Assembly: GCA_963971425.1 (NCBI GenBank)
Contig: OZ020516.1
Coordinates: forward strand, 15,550,593 to 15,614,592
DNA from: Bryoerythrophyllum caledonicum
Taxonomy: Eukaryota > Streptophyta > Bryopsida > Pottiales > Pottiaceae
Direction: 5' to 3'
Length of the DNA: 64,000 nucleotides
The notes under the pieces were generated by a model that saw nothing but the letters and a program-made list of their open reading frames with translations, was not told the DNA's origin and did no database searches. Shown here in pieces: positions 7,103 through 62,150 of this stretch. Position 1 is the first letter of the stretch; each line of letters begins with the position of its first letter. The position numbers and the translations under genes are program-made.

Positions 7103-8112
7103 ATGGCGGACGAGTCGTACACAGCCACGACTCCGGAGGGGAGGGAGGTTCGGATTCCGGACGATCGCACATACTACATCAACATCCCCATCCACCCCCT
7201 CACTGGCCAGGTACCTACTTTCCTACGCCATGCATCATGTTTCACGATCCAAATCTACACATGATCTCAAGAGTAGAGATTCATATCTGCAAGCAACGAC
7301 CGAGAGTTTTGTTAGGCACAATTGATGTCCCCATTCGATAAGATGACACTGTTAATTCGATATCAAGAGCGACTTTGGTGGTCCTAATGTTGTGAAATTC
7401 GTCTGGGAACCCCTAACCTTGGAAGATAGCTCTGGTATAGTAGATTGGAATGGTGAGGTTTTTAAGGATCGAAATCTGTTATCTGATATTTTCATGATGG
7501 ACTTGGCTTGTGGATCAGGTGGCAGATGAGCACCTGCACAGACTGTCGCTGTACTACACCATCTACGGCGTGGTGTTCGGCATCGTGGGGTTGGTGTCCA
7601 TCATCGTGCCGATCTTCTTCAAGCAGGTGCCGCTGGACCAGCTGATCGCATGGCTGCTCGTCGTAGGCGGCGCCGTGACGCTGTTGCAGTTTTTCCTGGT
7701 GTGCGGCGCGCCCGGCACCACCTCGTTCTTGCTGCTCGGCGCGCTGCACCTGGGCGTGGGCCTGTGGATGCTGCTGCAGCCCGTGCCCAACCCCACCATG
7801 CTCGTCTTCATCGTGTGCGGCTGGTTCCTCGTCCACGGCGTGCTCAAGCTGCTCATGGCGTGCCAGGTGCGCCAGCTCGCCACCTGGCCCGCGGTGCTCA
7901 TCAGCGGCCTCGTCTCGGTCATCCTCGCGTTCGTGCTGCTCGCCCTCAGCTCCTGGCTGTTCAAGGAGTCCATCAAGCTGCTCGGCATCTTCATCGGCGG
8001 CGACCTCATCCTCACCGCCATCGCCCTCCTCCTCATCGCCTTCATGGCCCGCCTCGGCCACCGCGCAAAGGAGACCCACCAACCCCTCCTCGCCCAACAC
8101 GGCATCGCCTAA
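7103..8112 (+). CDS. DUF308/HdeD-like multi-pass membrane protein
   Basis: Two exons, 7103-7210 and 7519-8112 (intron 7211-7518, GT at 7211 and ATCAG at 7518), join in phase 0 to give 233 residues. Exon 1 encodes a polar N-terminus (MADESYTATTPEGREVRIPD...). Exon 2 holds about six hydrophobic helices: YGVVFGIVGLVSIIVPIFF, LIAWLLVVGGAVTLLQFFLV, FLLLGALHLGVGLWMLL, MLVFIVCGWFLVHGVLKLL, WPAVLISGLVSVILAFVLLA and LLGIFIGGDLILTAIALLL. The pattern of three helix pairs with internal Gly is that of DUF308, named after bacterial acid-resistance HdeD. The molecular function in plants is unknown to me. Coding DNA is strongly GC-rich at third positions, unlike its surroundings. AATAAA follows at 8164. It is convergent with the GAMYB gene. 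Confidence 0.8.
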
Positions 8113-48964: not shown

Positions 48965-48986
48965 AGTAGAAGCGCAGTAGATTATA

Positions 48987-49310
48987 TCAGAAAGCAGGAT
49001 TCAGTCCATAATATCTCCAGTCGAGTGCGTTGAAGAAGTGTTCTCCTTGGAGTGCAACTGCTCGTCCCTTAGGACACAACTTCCGGGGCTGCAACAGATA
49101 TTCCACACCAGTGGTGAGCTCAAACAACACATCCAAAGAACGTAGAGATTTTCTCCCGGTCATGAACAGCGCCACACATAACAAGAAAATTGCGGAAATC
49201 CAATCTAGAACTCTCGATGAACTAGCGCCTGGATCGAGCGGTGAAACCGGCACCATGTTGAAGTTAGTCATCCAATGCATCAAATTATGACTCAGGGGAA
49301 AAGTGCACAC
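48987..49310 (-). CDS. Unrecognised 107-residue ORF downstream of the left cystatin
   Basis: The frame includes FNMVPVSPLDPGASSSRVLD, a short hydrophobic helix (ISAIFLLCVALFM) and RKSLRSLDVLFELTTGVEYL near the C-terminus. No known family. In the right arm the same frame is split by a MITE. Most aligned differences in the distal part would change residues, so it is either weakly constrained or simply the 3' UTR of the cystatin gene. Confidence 0.3.
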   Translation of the reverse strand: MCTFPLSHNLMHWMTNFNMVPVSPLDPGASSSRVLDWISAIFLLCVALFMTGRKSLRSLDVLFELTTGVEYLLQPRKLCPKGRAVALQGEHFFNALDWRYYGLNPAF

Positions 49311-49648
49311 TCGTCACTCACTCCCCTCTTCACTTACTCTCAAACGAGTGAATGCTATCACATAACAGCAGAAACGTTACTCTATCATTAACACCATGTT
49401 CCTTACATTGATCAATCCCAGTTAGTAAAGAATGCAATACAAAAACCAGAAGTAGTGGCCCGAATAACAGTGATAAGAAAAATGGCGCTCAGGATGAAAT
49501 AACTCAGATAGTATCGTTCTATTCTACTACAAAACGAATCAAATTAAAAAACAACTCATCTAGTTTAGAATGATCATCATAAGGGGAAAAGCCGTCGGAC
49601 AGTCACTTGGACCACGGAAAGGGAGACATTCGGACGACTAACCTTGTG

Positions 49649-50490
49649 TCAGGGGGAGGTTAACTTACCTTCTACGGGACTGAATTCCTCCACCCGTTTG
49701 AAGTTCTGCCACCACTTCTCCCAAATCCTGCCCTCATACTGCCTGACCTGGCCTCCCTGATCCTCCACCTCCATCAGCAGGAAGTACGTGTATCCCATAC
49801 GCTCCAGCGTGTGCACCTTCACCAGCTTGGAAAACTTCAGCTTCTCCAGGCAGTTCTGGAGAAGTACAACAAACCTGGAGTCAGTGGAAAACAATCCAAC
49901 TCCAAACATACCCAAAACAGGCCCAATCTACTTGTAAACATCTTCTTCACAAACGCTCAACCAAAAACCCCTGCCAATCCCACAGAGTCATAAATTCCAA
50001 GATGTACTACAGATTCCAAGGATCAGAGTGTGCGATATCAGACAGCAAACCCTGCACCAGGACCTCGAGATGGAGATGCGAAGAACAACATACTGAGAGG
50101 AATCAATCATCACATCGGCAGACATGGAAAAGTTCCCTGAAAAGAAGATTCACAGCCACGAACCTGGTGCTTGTTGTTATGCTCATCGACGGCGAATTTC
50201 GCCAGCTCTTCATACTCCAAGCTGTTGCAATCCTGTTCGTGAAGCCCTGTAATGATCCTCCCCTTCCAAACCATCGTAACTGGCACTGGGGCTTCTCCCC
50301 TGACTGGAGGGAGAGGAGGAACCTCCATAACTGGCACTGGGGCTTCTCCCCTGTCTGGAGGGGGACGAGGAACCTCCATAACTGGCACTGCGTTCACCAA
50401 AACGTAAACAAACCTTGATCCGATTGCGTTTGCTGCGAACTCCGATTCGCTTAAGTATCTCAATCTCGCAAGACGGAGTCGTGTGCACAT
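49649..50490 (-). CDS. Phytocystatin-like protein with altered inhibitory loop (left copy)
   Basis: Two exons, 50490-50164 and 49855-49649, join in phase 0 (intron GT...CTCCAG) to give 177 residues from the first ATG. The N-terminal half is a proline-rich repeat (VPVMEVPRPPPDRGEAP type). The cystatin domain follows: ITGLHEQDCNSLEYEELAKF, with the phytocystatin signature ELAKFAVDEHN (helix), then strands LVKVHT and FLLMEVEDQGGQ. In place of the QxVxG first loop it has LERMG, with only the glycine kept. The C-terminal W loop reads IWEKWWQNF. Cystatins block papain-like cysteine proteases through these loops, so this copy is predicted not to inhibit classically. The N-terminal start is uncertain: an internal ATG at MEVPRPP is possible. 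Transcribed away from its twin. Confidence 0.75.
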
Positions 50491-51529
50491 CACCTGAACC
50501 CGTCATTATGTGCAAAACTCGCACACTTCTTCCCAATTCGTAGACTGTAGTGAATTTCCAACGGAGGAGACTCGAGGCTCGGACTTGGGCAGCGAGGGCC
50601 AGCTGAATATTTGCAAAGCCGTCACAAAACACCAAAACCGTCACTGTGGCACAGTGCGATCAAAGATGCTTTCATGTCCGTGACGGCTTTGGGTACGCGT
50701 ATCCACATCAGCGCAGCATCCACTCGCGGTTTCAGGACGCAATGGAGGTGTCTACCCAAAGCCGTCATCTTTCTCCTCTACTGTACAGTACACCGTGTTT
50801 TTGACCAAGTTACAACTGTTGTGAAGCACACAAGCAGCCCGTTGTAAGCTCATGCGTTGCATGTGAGCATGAAGAAGCCTAAGGAGCAGCCTACAGAGCA
50901 CATGGACTGCATAATTGAACGCGCATGTTGCAGATGATATTGCGACACGAGAACATTTGCAGTTCCTTAAGTTTCGCTGGGATGGCTTAGAGTATTGAAG
51001 CGTGCCAGGCACGGCTTCGCAGGTTGCATCCGCGGGATAAGGGTAGGGTAGTAGGGCGGACACGGGGGACCACTGTCTCGGGGAACGAAGGGGAAGCTGA
51101 AACGACGCTGGAGGCAGATTTTGTCCCTTTCGCCAAGAGCTTTGGAAAAGGATGGAAAGGACTAATAAAGTCACTGAACTTGGAAAGAAATCATGCAACG
51201 TGTGTTCTGAGAAGACGAAGAGACACGGTCGTGGACAGATTCATAGAATGATTCAAATTTATAAATATGAATCATTCGAAATCTGGGTTGTAAGTTCCAA
51301 AGAGTTTTCTTTTCCGTGGAACTGTAGATTCAATAACAATGTTTTCTCACTAATATTATGATTTTCTCCAAAAAAAAAAAAAAAACATGTAAGCCTTGCA
51401 AATTATTTTAAAAGGAATCGGTTTCTTCTTCTAATTTTCACTAACATTTTGGACGTTGACATGAATATTTCAGAAAATCTAGATGTTTTGTTATTCTAGC
51501 AGTTGTAGGTTGATTTTGAAATGAGTTAA

Positions 51530-51923
51530 CCCTTAAACATCAGAGCCAGCCCGACGGGTTGGGTTTCTGGAGAATATTCTATTTTTCTCCGAGTATAGTT
51601 CGATAGAGCAGGCAAGGTCAGGGTCGTTGAACTCGTTGTACGTAGGCACGTCGACAATGATCAGACTCAGTCTATCAATGTCAATCATCTTCTCGCAATT
51701 GTGATCCCGAGAAGCTCGCATGAATAGTGAAAGTTGTCAGTTTTTCTTCAGCTTCCAGACCGTTGCGAGAAGGGTTGACACTGCGTAGTAGATCTAATCG
51801 CACAGTGTGATCACGCACAGTCTACTTGAAAGGAAATTGCTGCCCGAAACTACTGCCCGTTGAGAAATTCCATGGAACTGATACCTGGGCAGCCTGACGA
51901 GGCATTGAAATGTCGTTTAAGGG
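51530..51923. mobile_element. 394-bp TTAA element in the spacer
   Basis: TTAA (51526-51529) then CCCTTAAACATCAG; right end TGTCGTTTAAGGG then TTAA (51924-51927). The nine terminal bases CCCTTAAAC are inverted repeats. The second copy after the gap contains only its right part (53186 to about 53470). Confidence 0.65.
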
Positions 51924-52073
51924 TTAATATAGTTGTGGTGTGTATTTAGTTAGTATACTTTGTGTGTTATGGGAACATGAGAAGATACATGGGCAAGTTC
52001 AAACGGAAAGTTTCAAAATCTCGAAGATTAATTTACTACAAAATAAATCACTAGAACCTAGTCTAGTGTGAAG

Positions 52074-52722
52074 AGAGGGGTTTTGGAGGTTTTCAACCAT
52101 TTAGTAAATTAGGAACTCTATAAATTTAAGATGTTGGATGTTGGATATACTACAGTTTAACGTTCTAAGAGTATGCGCACCTTTTCACCAATACTCCCAT
52201 CTTCAATGTCAACACCAGTTCAACTCTATATTTTTTCACAAAACCCATGCCTGCTGAAAACAACATCCAAAAAACTCCGCCACCAATCCATCGCCTCACT
52301 GAGTCTTCTCCTTGAAAACGCTACCCAAAGATGTTGTGTCCTCCATTGCTCCCTTGCTCGCAAGCGTCTTACAAGAATATCACTTGCATTGGCATTTTTT
52401 AGCATCAAGGAAGAGTAGTTTTTCCCTCCACTTCGCTTCAACGGGGCTTCCAAAATTATGTACATGGCTTCATCGGGCTTCACCTTATACCCTACAAATA
52501 GAAGCAAAGAAACATGACCTTGCATGGGCTAGAAATTATACGGACTGTTGTATTGATTATAATAGGCTAGAAAAGATAGTAGCCTTTGTAAAACTTGGAT
52601 TGGTTAAAAAGTGCGCATACTCTTGGAACGCTAAATCGAAGTATATCCAACATCCGACATCTTAAATTGATAGAGTTCCTAGTTTTCTAAATGGTTGAAA
52701 ACCTCCAAAACCCCTCTATTCC
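52074..52722. mobile_element. ~650-bp element with ~115-bp terminal inverted repeats
   Basis: AGAGGGGTTTTGGAGGTTTT ... at the left is mirrored by the same string on the other strand at the right end (…cctccaaaacccctct). Similarity continues through ctaaat..taggaactcta and tgttggatatact to gtatgcgcac. No target duplication was seen. It recurs at 53621-54269 because of the assembly overlap. Confidence 0.6.
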
Positions 52723-52985
52723 GATTCCTTTTAAAATAATTTGCAAGGCTTATATGTTTTTTTTTTTTTTTTGGAGAAAATCATAATATTAGTGAGAAAA
52801 CATTGTTATTGAATCTACAGTTCCACGGAAAAGAAAACTCTTTGGAACTTACAACCCAGATTTCGAATGATTCATATTTATAAATTTGAATCATTCTATG
52901 AATCTGTCCACGACCGTGTCTCTTCGTCTTCTCAGAACACACGTTGCATGATTTCTTTCCAAGTTCAGTGACTTTATTAGTCCTT

Positions 52986-53185
52986 NNNNNNNNNNNNNNN
53001 NNNNNNNNNNNNNNNNNNNNNNNNNNNNNNNNNNNNNNNNNNNNNNNNNNNNNNNNNNNNNNNNNNNNNNNNNNNNNNNNNNNNNNNNNNNNNNNNNNNN
53101 NNNNNNNNNNNNNNNNNNNNNNNNNNNNNNNNNNNNNNNNNNNNNNNNNNNNNNNNNNNNNNNNNNNNNNNNNNNNNNNNNNNNN
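52986..53185. other. Assembly gap of exactly 200 N
   Basis: Round-number run of N. Sequence on its right (53186-54532) repeats sequence on its left (51641-52985). Confidence 0.98.
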
Positions 53186-54532
53186 CGTAGGCACGTCGAC
53201 AATGATCAGACTCAGTCTATCAATGTCAATCATCTTCTCGCAATTGTGATCCCGAGAAGCTCGCATGAATAGTGGAAAGTTGTCAGTTTTTCTTCAGCTT
53301 CCAGACCGTTGCGAGAAGGGTTGACACTGCGTAGTAGATCTAATCGCACAGTGTGATCACGCACAGTCTAACTTGAAAGGAAATTGCTGCCCGAAACTAC
53401 TGCCCGTTGAGAAATTCCATGGAACTGATACCTGGGCAGCCTGACGAGGCATTGAAATGTCGTTTAAGGGTTAATATAGTTGTGGTGTGTATTTAGTTAG
53501 TATACTTTGTGTGTTATGGGAACATGAGAAGATACATGGGCAAGTTCAAACGGAAAGTTTCAAAATCTCGAAGATTAATTTACTACAAAATAAATCACTA
53601 GAACCTAGTCTAGTGTGAAGAGAGGGGTTTTGGAGGTTTTCAACCATTTAGTAAATTAGGAACTCTATAAATTTAAGATGTTGGATGTTGGATATACTAC
53701 AGTTTAACGTTCTAAGAGTATGCGCACCTTTTCACCAATACTCCCATCTTCAATGTCAACACCAGTTCAACTCTATATTTTTTCACAAAACCCATGCCTG
53801 CTGAAAACAACATCCAAAAAACTCCGCCACCAATCCATCGCCTCACTGAGTCTTCTCCTTGAAAACGCTACCCAAAGATGTTGTGTCCTCCATTGCTCCC
53901 TTGCTCGCAAGCGTCTTACAAGAATATCACTTGCATTGGCATTTTTTAGCATCAAGGAAGAGTAGTTTTTCCCTCCACTTCGCTTCAACGGGGCTTCCAA
54001 AATTATGTACATGGCTTCATCGGGCTTCACCTTATACCCTACAAATAGAAGCAAAGAAACATGACCTTGCATGGGCTAGAAATTATACGGACTGTTGTAT
54101 TGATTATAATAGGCTAGAAAAGATAGTAGCCTTTGTAAAACTTGGATTGGTTAAAAAGTGCGCATACTCTTGGAACGCTAAATCGAAGTATATCCAACAT
54201 CCGACATCTTAAATTGATAGAGTTCCTAGTTTTCTAAATGGTTGAAAACCTCCAAAACCCCTCTATTCCGATTCCTTTTAAAATAATTTGCAAGGCTTAT
54301 ATGTTTTTTTTTTTTTTTTGGAGAAAATCATAATATTAGTGAGAAAACATTGTTATTGAATCTACAGTTCCACGGAAAAGAAAACTCTTTGGAACTTACA
54401 ACCCAGATTTCGAATGATTCATATTTATAAATTTGAATCATTCTATGAATCTGTCCACGACCGTGTCTCTTCGTCTTCTCAGAACACACGTTGCATGATT
54501 TCTTTCCAAGTTCAGTGACTTTATTAGTCCTT
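53186..54532 (+). repeat. Direct repeat of 51641-52985, probable unmerged contig overlap
   Basis: About 1.35 kb in the same orientation, differing by eye only by two single-base length differences (gtgaaag/gtggaaag and tctacttg/tctaacttg). It ends exactly where the left contig stops, and the right text then continues into unique sequence. Confidence 0.8.
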
Positions 54533-55198
54533 TCCATCCTTTTCCAAAGCTCTTGGCGAAAGGGACAAAATCTGCCTCCAGCGTCGTTTCAGCTTCCCCT
54601 TCGTTCCCCGAGACAGTGGTCCCCCGTGTCCGCCCTACTACCCTACCCTTATCCCGCGGATGCAACCTGCGAAGCCGTGCCTGGCACGCTTCAATACTCT
54701 AAGCCATCCCAGCGAAACTTAAGGAACTGCAAATGTTCTCGTGTCGCAATATCATCTGCAACATGCGCGTTCAATTATGCAGTCCATGTGCTCTGTAGGC
54801 TGCTCCTTAGGCTTCTTCATGCTCACATGCAACGCATGAGCTTACAACGGGCTGCTTGTGTGCTTCACAACAGTTGTAACTTGGTCAAAAACACGGTGTA
54901 CTGTACAGTAGAGGAGAAAGATGACGGCTTTGGGTAGACACCTCCATTGCGTCCTGAAACCGCGAGTGGATGCTGCGCTGATGTGGATACGCGTACCCAA
55001 AGCCGTCACGGACATGAAAGCATCTTTGATCGCACTGTGCCACAGTGACGGTTTTGGTGTTTTGTGACGGCTTTGCAAATATTCAGCTGGCCCTCGCTGC
55101 CCAAGTCCGAGCCTCGAGTCTCCTCCGTTGGAAATTCACTACAGTCTACGAATTGGGAAGAAGTGTGCGAGTTTTGCACATAATGACGGGTTCAGGTG

Positions 55199-56031
55199 AT
55201 GTGCACACGACTCCGTCTTGCGAGATTGAGATACTTAAGCGAATCGGAGTTCGCAGCAAACGCAATCGGATCAAGGTTTGTTTACGTTTTGGTGAACGCA
55301 GTGCCAGTTATGGAGGTTCCTCGTCCCCCTCCAGACAGGGGAGAAGCCCCAGTGCCAGTTATGGAGGTTCCTCCTCTCCCTCCAGGAGCCCGAGTGCCAA
55401 TTACGGAGCTTTCGAAGGGAAAAATCTGCGGAGGGCTTCACGAACACGATTGCAACAGCTTGAAGTATGAAGAGCTGGCGAAATTCGCCGTCGATGAGCA
55501 TAACAACAAGCACCAGGTTCGTGGCTGTGAATCTTCTTTTTTGGGAACTCTTCCATGTCTGCCGATGTGATGAGCGGTTCCTCTCAGTATGTTGTTCTTC
55601 GCATCTCCATCTCCAGGTCCTGGTGCAGGGTTTGCTGTCTGATATCGCACACTCTGATCCTTGGAATCTGTAATACATCTTGGAATTTATGACTCTGTGG
55701 GATTGGCAGGGGTTTTTGGTTGAGTGTTTGTGAAGCAGAGTTTTACAAGTAGATTGGGCCTGTTTTGGGTATGTTTGGAGTTGGATTGTTTTCCACTGAC
55801 TCCAGGTTTGTTGTTCTTTTCCAGAATGGCGTGGAGAAGCTGAAGTTTTCCAAGCTGGTGAAAGTGCACACGCAGGTGGTTGCGGGATGCATGTACCACC
55901 TGCTGATGGAGGTGGAGGATCAGGGAGGCCAGGTCAAGCAGTATGAGGGCAAGATTTGGGAGAAGGGGTGGGAGAACTTCAAACAGGTGGTGAAATTCAG
56001 TCCCAGAGAAGGTGAGTTAACCTCTCCCTGA
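55199..56031 (+). CDS. Phytocystatin (cysteine protease inhibitor), right copy
   Basis: Exons 55199-55516 and 55825-56031 join in phase 0 (GTTCGT...TTCCAG) to give 174 residues from the first ATG. Order: proline-rich repeat (VPVMEVPRPPPDRGEAP), GGLHEHDCNSLKYEELAKFA with the plant LARFAV-like signature ELAKFAVDEHN, then QVVAG, the classic QxVxG first inhibitory loop, strand YHLLMEVEDQGGQV, and second-loop region KIWEKGWENF (W kept, usual P replaced by G). Such proteins bind papain-like proteases tightly in the cytosol or secretory route. There is no convincing signal peptide; an internal start at MEVPRPP is possible. A donor-like GAAG|GTGAGT lies 15 bp before the stop, so a further 3' exon cannot be excluded. 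AATAAA is at 57532. Confidence 0.85.
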
Positions 56032-56457
56032 CACAAGGTTAGTCGTCCGAATGTCTCCCTTTCCGTGGTCCAAGTGACTGTCCGACGGCTTTTCCCCTTA
56101 TGATGATCATTCTAAACTAGACGAGTTGTTTTTTTATTTGATTCGTTTTGTAGTAAAATAGAACGATACTATCTGAGTTATTTCATCCTGAGCGCCATTT
56201 TTCTTATCACTGTTATTCGGGCCACTACTTCTGGTTTTTGCATTGCATTCTTTACTAACTGGGATTGATCAATGTAAGGAACGTGGTGTTAATGATTGAG
56301 TAACGTTTCTGCTGTTATGTGATAGCATTCACTCGTTTGAGAGTAAGTGAAGAGGGGAGTAAGTGACGAGTGTGCACTTTTCCCCTGAGTCATAATTTGA
56401 TGCGTTGGATGTCGAACTTCAACATGGTGCCAGTTTCACCGCTCGATCCAGGCGCTA

Positions 56458-57041
56458 CACTAAACATTGCATTTAGTGTAGTCACACAAATAGTGTAATT
56501 ACCCTACTACACTATTTGCGAACTTGTTCACAACTAGTGTTAGCGGCCAACATCATTATTGATGCCTCCACCAACCGCCTACTAGCCGTCAAGTATTTAT
56601 TCTCTATGTTGACTATTCTTGTTTTCTCTATGTTGACTATTCTTGTTTTCTCTATGTTGACTATTCTTGTTGAATTTACACCACCAAAATCTGGAAATGC
56701 CCATAACTTACTCATATTTTCTTCAAATTAAACATATGATATGTTTTTTGAAATCTACAGAAAATGTAGATGTCAAAAAACATCTCATGACTGAAATTCC
56801 GATACTTTTTGAGTGACTTATGCTCCTTTGAATAGTGCTGATTTTATTCACTGCGGCAAGATTTTTCATACACTAATTGTGCACAAGTAAAAAAAAAAAA
56901 CCAACCATTTTTACTGCAATTCACATATAGTGTAATGTTTCACATTTAGTGTAATGTTGTGTCGTTACTCTAATTGTAATTCTTCCTTTTAGTGTAAGAG
57001 TTCGTATTTAGTGTAGACGACACTAAATGTGATTTTTAGTG
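56458..57041. mobile_element. 584-bp CACTAAA/TA MITE inserted in the right arm
   Basis: The left arm preserves the empty site ggcgcTAgttcatcg. The right arm reads ggcgcTA then CACTAAACATTGCATTTAGT... and ends ...GATTTTTAGTG then TAgttcatcg. This gives a perfect TA duplication and CACTAAA ends. Extra tttagtgta motifs lie near both ends. No coding capacity. Same family as 19550-19765. Confidence 0.88.
56600..56671 (+). repeat. Three perfect 24-bp tandem units
   Basis: ttctctatgttgactattct-tgtt three times head to tail (56600, 56624, 56648), inside the MITE. Confidence 0.9.
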
Positions 57042-57081
57042 TAGTTCATCGAGAGTCCTAGATTTTATTTCCGCAATTTTC

Positions 57082-57279
57082 TTGTTATGTGTGGCGCTGT
57101 TCATGACCAGGAGAAAGTCTCTACGTTCTTTGGATGTGTTGTTTGAGCTCACCACTGGTGTGGAATATCTGTTGCAGCCCCGGAAGTTGTGTCCTAAGGA
57201 ACGAGCAGTTGCACTCCAAGGAAAACACTTCTTCAACTCACTCGACTGGAGATATTATGGACTGAATCCTGCTTTCTGA
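57082..57279 (+). pseudogene. Right-arm counterpart of the 107-residue ORF, split by a MITE
   Basis: It keeps the distal part (SLRSLDVLFELTTGVEYLLQ... YYGLNPAF). The upstream part FNMV..SPLDPG lies before the MITE, so the frame is no longer continuous. If the stretch is 3' UTR the split has no coding effect. Confidence 0.35.
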
Positions 57280-57531
57280 GATAATTCACTGCGCTACTAC
57301 GTAACTAATCATGTTGTTTTCCTTGTTCTACGTCAAGGCCTGGAGAACAACAGTTAAGGTGGCGTGATGACCTAGAAATGATGTAGCCTTTCCTCAAAGA
57401 CTGGATCCTGCTTTTCTGAGATCTATAAGAGGGCTAGTTCGTAACCTTTGTAGTTTCGTTTGTACTATGCCGTTAATCGAAAGACAGTGTAGTGTTCGTG
57501 CTTAGTTCTGGCCTGTAAGTTTGTTTCTGAA

Positions 57532-57537: not shown

Positions 57538-58202
57538 ATAACTGTGTAATACTACATCATTTCTGAAACCCTATCGTGATCAAGCACGCCACAATGTTCG
57601 CATCTTTGTCATGCACATTATTCTCTCACCTCAGGATAGTTCAACCCTAATCCCTTCGGCACCCCAGAGGCAGCCTTGCCAATGCAAAAAATGGTCGGCT
57701 GAAGCTTCCACACTCACTGTCCGAGACGAAGAAAGAGAAGACACTGTCAGACTCATCTCGAATCCATTGCAAAGACACACTCTTTTTTCCTTGAGCTCTT
57801 CCATGATTCTAGTTGAGAGATCATGACGACAAAGTAACTTAGCAGTCTGAGTGAAAACGGAAAACTGTGTAGTATCTTCATTTTGTGAGATGGAAGAGTC
57901 GTTGTGTTCTGTAATCTCACTGGATTGATCTATTTTGTACTGTTTCAGAAACAGATACGACGTTCTAATAAGGAAAACACTGCAAAATAGAGAAATTCAC
58001 CTTGCCGAACACTATTTCGGGCACCAGGCAAGTTTTGGGTTTAGGTCACAGCACCCATCACCGCACAAGTGGGCACGGCAAAACCTCCATAGATGACCTT
58101 TCTACTTTACGAATGTTGTGCAGATTCGCGCGCTTCCCCATTGTTTGTTTCAGTGATGGGATGTGAGTGAGTGAGGGAGGGAGGAAGCGAGAGGAGAGAG
58201 GG
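57538..58202. promoter_or_regulatory. Intergenic and upstream region of QTRT2
   Basis: No gene is seen. The last 80 bp before the ATG are purine-rich (gagtgagggaggg, gagaggagagaggg), a plausible 5' leader. Confidence 0.4.
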
Positions 58203-61200
58203 ATGGAGTTCGCGGTGGTGGCGAACAGTGGAGGCGCGAGGGCGGGGTCGTTGCAGGTGGCGGAGGGCACGGTGCAGGTGGAGACGCCGAGCTTGCTGCA
58301 CCTCACGCAGAAGGGGCTGCCCGTCCAAATCCCGCCTGACATGCTGCTGGACTTGCACCCGGACGCTCGCCTTTGCCAATTCACGCCCCTGCACTTGTGA
58401 GTACTATGTGTGTGTGTGTGTGTTGCGTCTTCGGAGCTTGCCTTTTGAATTACCGAGTTGTGGCATTTCTTCTTTTTCTTCTTCTCCTTCTGAGATTATG
58501 ATTCTGTCATTTCTTGTAGTATGTCATTTTTAATGTTTAGTGCCATCTTCGGAGCTTGTTCTTTGTGGCATTTATTTCCTTTTGGGATTGAGATTGTGCC
58601 ATTATATGAGATTATGTTATTCATTGTGTTTCGTGCCATCTCAGGAGCTTGATTGTGCATTTCCAGGTTGTGGCACTTTTCTCCTTCTGGGATTGGGTTT
58701 CTGTCATCTTTGGGGATGATGTCATGTTTTTTTTTGTGTAGTGAGATGTTCTTCTGGTTGTTGGTTGGGTTCGTTTTTTTCTTGTAACGAGGAGGAGAAG
58801 GGGCTGATAATGTGCATCGGTTGATCATGTGATTAATGTTTAGCGCCATCTCAGGAGCTTGGTTTGTTTTCTCCTGGGATCAGGATTATGCCATTTTGGG
58901 GGACTTTTCTGTGTGATGAGATTTTCGTTGTAGTTTTCCTGTAGTCAGTGGCTGATAATGAGTTGGGTGGATGTTGTGCGTTAAGTCTGGAGAGTCCGCT
59001 GGCGTTCGTCATAGCGAGGGCAGGCGGGATTCACAAGCTTTCTTCGTTGACTTCGTTTGGGATGGTGGCTGTGGCGCGCGACATGCTCACAAAGTTGGCG
59101 CATAACGAGGAGGAAGCGCCCAAGATCAGTAGTGAGCCACCCACAGTACGTACCTGCCCTCAGGAGTTCATATGGACTGGAATGCTTGGATTAAGTTTTT
59201 GCAATTGTAACAATTTCTTTGATAGAAAAAAGAGATCCTACTTGATTTTTGTGGTGATGTTTGGATTTTGCGTGCTGCTAGTTTGGGGACTCTTATCTTT
59301 CCTAACGTTTTATAACCAGTGCTAGTGCTAGAGCGGCCTACCATCTTAGAATCCTTGAGGTGGATCATTCCTAAATGAACATGAAGATGTGTGTCACTTG
59401 AGGAATGAACATGACCTATTTGAAAAAGAATCGATCACGCTTGATTCCAACAACCAAGAGGGCGCCCTAGCATTGGTCCTAGAATGTTTATTCTGAGATA
59501 TATATTTTTTGGTTTTTTTTTTGGTTTTTTTTTGGTGTGGTGTCGTTTATGCTAATGGGTTATGAGTCAGGTAGGTCCTGAGAAGTATATGGAGGTGGTG
59601 AACGCATGCAAACCCGATTTGTGGGCGAGCTTGCCAGATGAGGTGCCGACGTGGGTGGATGAGAATCGGAACCGCCAGTCGGTGGACCGGACGCTCAAGT
59701 GGCTGGACCAGTGCCTCCTGTTGCAAAATGTATGTTCTCTCTTTCCTTTCCAAAAGCCATCTTTGTGTTCTAATTGCTTCTAATGCCTATTTTCGGAGTT
59801 TACTAGGGCGTTGCAATTTTCTTTTCTAAGCTACTTGAGGTATTTGTAAAGTCACCGAAAGTCTCAATAAGGTACCCTCACTTTTGTTTTATACTTCTAC
59901 TCCTTCATCACTGTTGATAGCTATTAGAGCAATGGAAGAGCTTGGTGGTTTCTCAACTAGAATTCTTATTAAGTATGGTGGTCTCCAAACTCAAGTAGTT
60001 GCCTTTGAGAAGGAAGGAGATATTAAGTTGTACCATGAATATTAGCTGCCTTTTTATAGACTGATATAGAGCTATTTAGGGCTAATTTTAGTATTGCAAA
60101 ATGAGGTCATATTTCATGGTATCTTTGCCTCACTTTTCTAATAACTCTAATATTTGACTTGTCCGCTGGGGCTGTAGGCGGAGCATGGGAACAGGTGCTT
60201 TGGTGTTGTGGTTGGAGCGTCCAGTATTGAGGAGAGAATCCGGTCTGCAGAACAGACGGCCACACGCAATGTAGTAGGTATAATGAAATCGTAGCTGTCT
60301 TTGACGCATTTGTGTGGCTTGAAAATGTAAATTACTGGTCCATCATTGCTAGAGGTTTCGTCATAGAGTTTGTGAATCAGCTGAGGTACTAAGTAACACA
60401 ATGACTTGGGGTTTGGTGTCCAGGTTTTTCTTTGGGTGGCTTTGGGATGGGCGAAGATGTTGCCCAACGTGCTTTGCTCATGGAAACAGTGATTGTATGT
60501 TCCTTCATATCTCCTTCTTCATCATTTATTATCTGGGATCTATTTTTTCTGGGTTAGAGCTTCCACTGAAGAATGGCGTATTTCTTCTGTATTACAGGCG
60601 AATTTACCAGAGGAGAAACTTCGCCATGTGTGTGGATTTGGTTTACCAGGTAATTTGTAAGCGAGTGATCAAGGGTCCTTGTCAATTTCGTAATGAAATT
60701 ATCATTCGTTTTGCCTGGGGTCGCTCTGATTCCATGTTATTTGGTGATATTGTGTGCTACGTGCAGAGGAAGTATTACAAGCTATTGGATCTGGTATTGA
60801 TCTGATCGACAGTATGTATCCTTCATGATTGATACCCTTCTTGTTCCCATTTTCAAAGCAGTCTGAAATTTGGAGTCAGATGTCTTGTTTCACAGATTAT
60901 ATTTGGCGACAATGAGTAAGTGGCCTTCAACTTGGTTATGTTTTTGTGGTCGAAAGTGCCACAACTTGATGCCAGGTTTGCAAGTAAATAGCTGTTGTTT
61001 CTTGATCTTGCCAGTGGTCATGAACAGTCTTTCAAATGAGGGTTGTTAACTTTGACTGGTCTGAGATATCCATTCACGTTAACAAAGGCAGGCTATGCGA
61101 TGACTTTCCCTCTTTGTATGGAAAGCGCTCGAAGTAGCCTTGAAAAGCAACCAACGGTGGAAGAGCTGGCTGAAAGTGGTTCAGACTCTGCAAAACTCAA

Positions 61201-61786
61201 CCTCCGCTCTGCTGCCTTCAGGTACACCACTGACGTCAAATAGAATCGAAGTGCCATGAGCATCCAAGTGCAATTTTTTTTTATTTGCCTAGATATCTCT
61301 GCCTGACTTCACAACTAACTCTATCGGTGCCAGGCTTGACGAAGAGCAACTGGTGGCTGGCTGCAAATGCTATACTTGTCAAAGGCATACTCGAGCGTAC
61401 GTTTACAATTTAATATACACGCAGGAGATGCTGGGTCAAACTTTACTAGAGATGTGAGTGCCTGCTCCTCAAAATGTGAGAACGTGAATCTATACTTGCG
61501 ATAATATCTGCCGGCTTGCAAATTGTGGCTGTAGCTTTTGGTGGTTGTCTTGATACTAAGGATTGAGATTGTCTTTCACATATGTGTTCATATTTCTTCT
61601 TGCATATGTGATGTGCTAATTGTGGAGTGATTTGGTGTGTGCAGACACAACACCTACCATTTCCTTGAGTTTGTGAAGGCGATCCGGGAATCCATCAAGA
61701 AGGATAAATTCAATGAGTTCCGGAACTGGTTCACCAGTAAAAAGCTTGAGACTGAAGTTCTTTCTTGCAAAACAGAGGAACTATGA
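58203..61786 (+). CDS. QTRT2: Queuine tRNA-ribosyltransferase accessory subunit 2
   Basis: Ten exons: 58203-58396, 58986-59145, 59571-59729, 60178-60277, 60424-60494, 60598-60649, 60767-60815, 61066-61221, 61334-61453 and 61645-61786. All phases close, giving 400 residues (human QTRT2 415). Landmarks: [20 protein letters not shown] near the N-terminus, [86 protein letters not shown], then the zinc-binding [18 protein letters not shown] (CxCxxC...H of the TGT family) and [24 protein letters not shown]2 pairs with catalytic QTRT1 to exchange guanine-34 for queuine in GUN-anticodon tRNAs. Exon 2 uses a weak acceptor (gttaag) and exon 7 the second of two overlapping donors, both chosen by phase. 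Confidence 0.92.
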
Positions 61787-62150
61787 CACAAGTCAGATAA
61801 CATACAGTGACTGCTAAAAATGAGTACGAAATAGATTAGTCTACCTTTAGCCATTCATATTTTATAATGCCAAATCAGTTGACGGCTCAAGTATACATGC
61901 AAGTAAATGATGTGGCTACCAAATTGCAAGTCTAGCAATGCAAATAATTTGAGAAAGATATAGATCAAAGTAAATTAGCTCTAAAACTCAGTCATGCTCA
62001 CACTTGGATTATGCAATGAATGCTACAAATGTGACATGTGCAAGTGGTTTTCTAGGTCTGATTTTTTGGATGGGCATGTTCCTGGCCTTCACATTTATAA
62101 TTGTGTGCCTATTCAGTGCACGTCATGTATGTAGATTGAGCAAAATGGTC
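61787..62150. other. 3' flank of QTRT2
   Basis: AT-rich and without a gene. No AATAAA lies close to the stop codon. Confidence 0.4.

Follow-up and report, generated by a model that had tools for sequence, protein, structure and literature searches.

What has driven apart two cystatin genes that lie as mirror images of each other within a single locus? The locus stands in a stretch of 64,000 nt of contig OZ020516.1 (hereafter the window; the assembly searched comprises 437 Mb in 894 contigs), where an inverted repeat of two arms (48966-51421 and 54268-57300) carries one cystatin gene in each arm, directed outward from the centre and with two exons seen. The initial annotation ascribed the differences between the copies to positive selection after duplication. 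This is the leading reading here too, with decay and conversion as rivals, because replacement changes on one copy, designated A, exceed the divergence of non-coding DNA and are enriched in the wedge that faces the protease. We give roughly even confidence to the view that the locus is an inverted phytocystatin duplicate in which inhibition of the papain type has probably disappeared from copy A, whose binding edge was reshaped with positive selection as the probable cause. The arms and the gene models are as follows.

48966..51421, minus strand: arm A, left arm of the inverted duplication (self-comparison of the window)
54268..57300, plus strand: arm B, right arm of the inverted duplication, containing a 588-bp insertion (self-comparison of the window)
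50164..50379, minus strand: copy A exon 1, start codon inferred, donor GTTCGT (arm alignment)
49856..50163, minus strand: copy A intron, 308 bp (arm alignment)
49649..49855, minus strand: copy A exon 2, open up to the stop codon (open frame and Pfam)
55310..55516, plus strand: copy B exon 1, start codon inferred (arm alignment)
55517..55824, plus strand: copy B intron, 308 bp (arm alignment)
55825..56031, plus strand: copy B exon 2, open up to the stop codon (open frame and Pfam)

The spliced proteins of both copies score above the Pfam cut-offs for the phytocystatins (MEROPS I25; PF00031/PF16845). Copy B matches PF16845 at 8.7e-20 (71.3 bits, cut-off 31) and PF00031 at 1.1e-13 (51.7 bits, cut-off 22.2), and copy A matches the same models at 1.3e-14 (54.7 bits) and 2.4e-05 (24.9 bits). 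Copy B has the full tripartite wedge of the family (GG, QVVAG and GW, i.e. N-terminal glycine, QxVxG and loop-2 tryptophan). The protein that matches it best in the collection searched is a cystatin from the moss Ceratodon purpureus (63% identity across 69% of copy B), and the matches listed from the profile search include cystatins of Physcomitrium and Sphagnum, so that the source is probably a moss. Like copy B, copy A retains the LAKFAVDEHN helix motif of the scaffold, open frames in both exons and the same splice signals. Unlike the phytocystatins in general, it lacks the Q and both V of QxVxG, reading LERMG instead, and the first G of GG; a protein search using copy A returned 50 candidates, none of them at E<=0.001. 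Descent and domain make copy A a phytocystatin; its inhibitory motif does not. The name of the SQAPI-type Pfam model is no evidence for inhibition of aspartic proteases, since ordinary cystatins listed in the profile search match that model too.

Alignment of the arms gives 25 differences in the 207 bases of exon 2 (55825-56031 vs. 49855-49649), 22 of them replacement and 3 silent, and 14 in the 308 bases of the intron (4.5%), exactly the figures that had been approximated by hand in the initial annotation. The identity of the copies at the start of exon 1, which it also reported, holds for the first 74 bases from the inferred start codon (55310-55383); of the remaining 133 bases (55384-55516) 17 differ, with a 9-base indel in addition (14 replacement, 3 silent changes). 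In its 3' part, which the initial annotation did not mention, exon 1 is as divergent as exon 2. Exon 1 also carries tandem proline-coding repeats of roughly 48 bp (50269-50390 and 55299-55385), the length of which differs by 9 bases between the copies. Divergence of the non-coding DNA amounts to 11/424 in the 3' flank, 12/259 in the outer arm and 37/991 when pooled.

Taken within the exons, these counts give a ratio of replacement to silent rates (dN/dS, omega) above 1 that is not significant. For exon 2 the NG86 method yields dN 0.152, dS 0.072 and omega 2.11 (Fisher p=0.16), where a value at or below 1 would have spoken against the claim of selection, and maximum likelihood (ML) yields omega 1.5-2.2 depending on kappa (p=0.2-0.5); exons 1 and 2 together give omega 1.77 (p=0.13; ML p=0.08-0.28). 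About 79% of the changes in exon 2 are expected to be replacements when selection is left out (160.2/203.9 sites), and 88% are seen. A ratio of 22:3 is thus near the neutral expectation, and the replacement bias, by itself no proof of selection, was ruled out as such. The evidence for selection is the contrast with non-coding DNA, not this ratio, so that of the original claim the excess over non-coding DNA and its enrichment at protease-facing residues are real, and the argument from the bias falls away. Ending exon 2 at a donor-like site (GTGAGT/GTAAGT) in place of the stop codon was tried and rejected; it gave omega 2.65 (p=0.14) and a replacement excess over the pool of p=1.8e-5, the same outcome as with the stop boundary. 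A paralogue and some homologues read GGLTSAD where copies A and B read GELTSP or GKLTSP and then stop, which tips the balance towards an ending at the stop rather than a third exon.

Replacement sites of exon 2 have changed 3.7-fold faster than the pooled non-coding DNA (p=3e-6), 5.3-fold faster than the 3' flank (p=1e-6), faster than the outer arm (p=1e-3) and 3.0-fold faster than the intron (p=5e-4), in keeping with the initial annotation, for which an intron as divergent as the exon would have been a refutation. At the silent sites of exon 2 the divergence is not distinguishable from that of the pool (p=0.24). When changes within 1, 2, 3 or 5 bases of each other are merged, the comparison of exon 2 with the pool gives p=1.7e-4, 1.2e-3, 0.012 and 0.016, and that with the intron p=0.004, 0.012, 0.051 and 0.034.

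In order to see which copy changed, we used cystatin paralogues of the same genome as outgroups. A search of the assembly with the exon-2 protein gave four matches at E<=0.001, namely copies B and A, one gene on C12 (the paralogue with GGLTSAD) and one on C4, the last two carrying QVVSG and QVVQG. When these two genes are used for polarisation, the exon-2 replacement changes, 22 in all, are assigned to copy A in 14 cases (11 clear, 3 probable) and to copy B in 3 (1 clear, 2 probable), 5 being unpolarised; the split of 14 vs. 3 has a binomial p=0.013. A four-gene codon model gives omega 4.2-6.3 for the branch of copy A and 0.19-0.20 for the paralogue branches, and a single omega is rejected in favour of a separate one for A and B (p=1.4e-3). 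In joint fits that take their clock from non-coding DNA, omega=1 on the A branch is rejected with p=6e-5 (pooled) and 1e-3 (intron only), and with equal branch lengths the values are p=2e-6 and 2e-5. Beside the cystatin gene on C12 there is an open frame with SNSL, as in legumain-inhibiting long cystatins.

The changes of copy A lie to a large extent where a cystatin grips its protease. The wedge consists of an N-terminal glycine, the QxVxG loop and a tryptophan loop (PMC5085774, PMC2474614, PMC2784779), and its elements are found here as follows.

50245..50253, minus strand: copy A N-terminal trunk, ITG (B: CGG)
55427..55435, plus strand: copy B N-terminal trunk, CGG
49781..49807, minus strand: copy A loop-1 patch, exon-2 codons 17-25, LERMGYTYF (B: QVVAGCMYH), 10 substitutions in 27 bp
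55873..55899, plus strand: copy B loop 1, QVVAGCMYH
49706..49714, minus strand: copy A loop 2, WWQ (B: GWE)
55966..55974, plus strand: copy B loop 2, GWE

All three contact elements are altered in copy A (GG to TG, QVVAG to LERMG, GWE to WWQ). With residue sets of our own choice, fixed after the differences were seen, 6 of 9 residues differ in a strictly defined wedge vs. 15 of the 83 other domain residues (p=0.004), and 9 of 16 vs. 12 of 76 under a wider definition (p=0.0014). Among strictly polarised residues, 5 of the 9 derived in A are in the wedge and 0 of the 3 derived in B. The positions lost in A are occupied in natural homologues by Q (128/129), V (124/129), V (129/129) and the first G (109 of the 113 that align there). 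The residue preceding the loop-2 tryptophan, G in copy B, is P in 109/128 homologues and hence not conserved in B either. These homologues are 129 of 131 proteins, two synthetic ones having been dropped, with 120 of 168 matches listed from the profile search; 16 were labelled moss-like by us, and three carry moss names. Since they were found through likeness to intact-motif cystatins or to a profile (A2) of B, A and Ceratodon, divergent loops may be under-sampled among them. Glutamate and arginine at the usual V-V pair would be expected to cost copy A its inhibition of papain.

Several results weigh against positive selection. Besides the lack of significance of omega from coding DNA alone, in exon 2 as in both exons, omega is 1.24 in exon 1 after the indel and 0.51 in its last 33 codons, and the changes cluster weakly along exon 2 (scan p=0.21, 0.055, 0.012 and 0.058 at windows of 15, 21, 27 and 33). 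In the codon model without an outside clock, omega=1 is not rejected for the A branch (estimate 6.3, p=0.15) and for A and B together (p=0.48). Removal of loop-1 codons 17-25 leaves omega=1 on the A branch unrejected in the joint fit (p=0.096 and 0.066) and reduces the contrast of exon 2 to p=0.013 against the pool and p=0.07 against the intron. The joint-fit p-values are also approximate, as the omega of copy B lies at its bounds in several fits. Finally, when all variable coding DNA is taken together, its silent sites tend to be more divergent than non-coding DNA (p=0.06 pooled, 0.02 vs. the 3' flank), so that the non-coding yardstick may be low. The inference depends largely on loop 1, and it presupposes that non-coding DNA measures the neutral rate fairly.

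These weaknesses leave room for relaxed constraint, under which a redundant copy A would be decaying, its replacement changes neutral and its loop-1 patch the product of one or a few multi-base mutations. Such a history agrees with within-exon omega values that do not significantly exceed 1, with an excess that becomes marginal once loop 1 is removed, and with the fact that the part destroyed is the motif required for inhibition. Neutrality on the A branch, however, predicts about 3.0-3.6 exon-2 replacement changes (5.8 with exon dS), vs. the 14 counted (p=3e-6, 3e-5 and 2.5e-3), and the 11 clear changes alone give p=3e-4, 1.4e-3 and 0.033, the last with exon dS. Under stricter polarisation over the whole domain the values are p=3.6e-4, 2.1e-3 and 0.046 by nucleotide and 0.025, 0.069 and 0.35 by codon event; with exon dS as the neutral rate, relaxation is therefore barely excluded by nucleotide (p=0.046) and not by codon event (p=0.35), a further point against selection. 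Merging of neighbouring changes still leaves exon 2 above the pool (p up to 0.016) and above the intron (p up to 0.051), and both exons are open with the scaffold motif intact, which is weak evidence at such a divergence. Decay of copy A is disfavoured, and we hold it to be somewhat unlikely. The other alternatives concern the history or the assembly of the DNA and turn in part on two inner blocks of the arms.

50304..51421, strand not assigned: inner block of arm A, near-identical counterpart of 54268-55385
54268..55385, strand not assigned: inner block of arm B, near-identical counterpart of 50304-51421

The inner blocks match across 1118 bp, with 1 mismatch in the 1043 bases upstream of exon 1, where simple arithmetic at 3.7% leads one to expect about 42 differences and the outer arms differ by about 4%; this near-identity means either that the arms have recently exchanged sequence or that the assembly has had an effect close to a gap of 200 N (52986-53185) that lies between them. 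It makes exchange between the arms plausible and so speaks for a mosaic history, in which a diverged cystatin-like sequence donated the exon patches of one copy by gene conversion, or inter-arm conversion lowered the divergence of non-coding DNA only, and the high tendency of silent sites in variable coding DNA (p=0.06 pooled) and the crowding of loop-1 changes, 10 in 27 bp, point the same way. Yet the two paralogues found in the assembly with the exon-2 protein have QVVSG and QVVQG, not LERMG, and a search of the assembly with arm B DNA found no third long copy (6 matches, those besides the arms being a 265-bp contig-overlap piece and pieces of 73, 101 and 206 bp). Within the window there is no donor for either patch of A, the best exact match outside the locus copies being a 12-mer of the exon-1 repeat. 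The two fast patches moreover sit in separate exons with the slower intron in between, tracking protein function and skipping the intron, and we consider conversion quite improbable. GC-biased conversion was tried separately and rejected, as strong bases in A facing weak ones in B and the reverse number 23 vs. 24 across the variable locus and 15 vs. 13 in coding DNA. That the palindrome is not real, its arms misplaced or mis-joined by the assembly, might be suspected from the gap and the near-identical inner blocks, and from the flanks of the gap (51641-54532), which repeat the same 1.35 kb on both sides with two 1-base differences. This repetition implies overlapping, unmerged contig ends and a true spacer of about 1.3 kb. 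Against misassembly, the left contig itself runs through the spacer and takes in 265 bp of the right arm, and the ends of the arms abut different flanks. The 588-bp insertion with its TA duplication is present in arm B and absent from arm A, the corresponding site of which (49213-49232) is empty, so that the arms are separate places. Misplacement could in any case not produce the replacement pattern, and an artefact is highly improbable.

On the leading reading the course was as follows. A small phytocystatin gene was presumably duplicated in inverted orientation, with the copies read outward. Copy B, having kept GG, QVVAG and the loop-2 tryptophan, is predicted to inhibit papain-like (C1A) proteases in the ordinary way. 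Copy A has retained its scaffold, but the wedge with which a cystatin enters the cleft of the protease is altered in each of its three elements; inhibition of papain-like proteases has probably been lost, and the binding edge may have been remodelled by selection for another target, as has been done artificially for Adhirons and Affimers. Changes faster than the surrounding non-coding DNA, mainly at the protease-gripping parts, suggest that an old job was lost or that a new one is being acquired. The one-sidedness of the changes (14 in A, 3 in B, 5 unpolarised) and the removal of the motif in A fit better with loss or switch of target than with an escalating contest with the same proteases.

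Plant cystatins with altered function offer partial parallels. Kiggundu (2006) and Goulet (2008) reportedly deal with positively selected sites of plant cystatins, to judge from their titles. Positive selection on residues that tune protease inhibition is described in a review (PMC5085774), and in copy A it is the invariant motif residues themselves that are replaced. Tobacco NtCYS8, with QVVATG, is a plant cystatin with a disrupted QxVxG, like copy A, and gave no visible inhibition when assayed (PMC4144781); copy A has 4 of 5 motif residues replaced in addition to changes in the trunk and loop 2. SQAPI and monellin, named as the well-known plant cases, are cystatin descendants in which the ancestral function gave way to another (PMC2784779), and copy A differs from them in being young, in belonging to a probable moss and in having a canonical twin next to it. 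In Adhirons and Affimers the phytocystatin scaffold is retained and loop 1 (VVAG) and loop 2 are replaced for new targets (PMC10605594); these are engineered and have nine-residue loops, whereas copy A is natural and its loop length is unchanged. We tentatively entertain, and think unlikely, the further idea that in copy A nature has produced the equivalent of an Affimer, a bryophyte cystatin with N-terminal trunk and both binding loops rewritten by selection, within about 4% of non-coding divergence, for a target that is not a papain-like protease, next to a mirror twin that stayed in the original role and hardly differs in its upstream DNA. In the literature searched, with subscription papers mostly outside it, we found no report of a moss cystatin lacking QxVxG, which is no proof of absence.

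Some further features of the locus and its surroundings were noted. Each end of the 588-bp element of arm B (56456-57043) carries TACACTAAA, the two in inverted orientation, and the target TA is duplicated. The spacer between the arms holds 123-bp inverted repeats of 90% identity (52070-52192 and 52599-52721), reminiscent of the termini of a short foldback element. At C4:11038979-11039079, about 34 kb from the C4 cystatin, 101 bp of the arms' 3' flank occur again (87%), possibly as a repeat. Elsewhere in the window, an apparent multi-exon gene on the plus strand (58200-61790) includes an exon piece that matches queuine tRNA-ribosyltransferase (PF01702, 1.5e-9), and a plus-strand open frame of 200 aa (7510-8112) has a DUF308 match just under the Pfam cut-off (23.6 vs. 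25 bits).

Diversification of the ancestral land-plant cystatin lineage is described as limited to angiosperms (PMC2784779), and a moss case would fall outside that limit. The locus offers a young natural pair, one member canonical and the other with rewritten loops. The two hardly differ in their upstream DNA and are about 4% apart in non-coding DNA, and such a pair could directly show how an inhibitor scaffold changes its partner, or decays.

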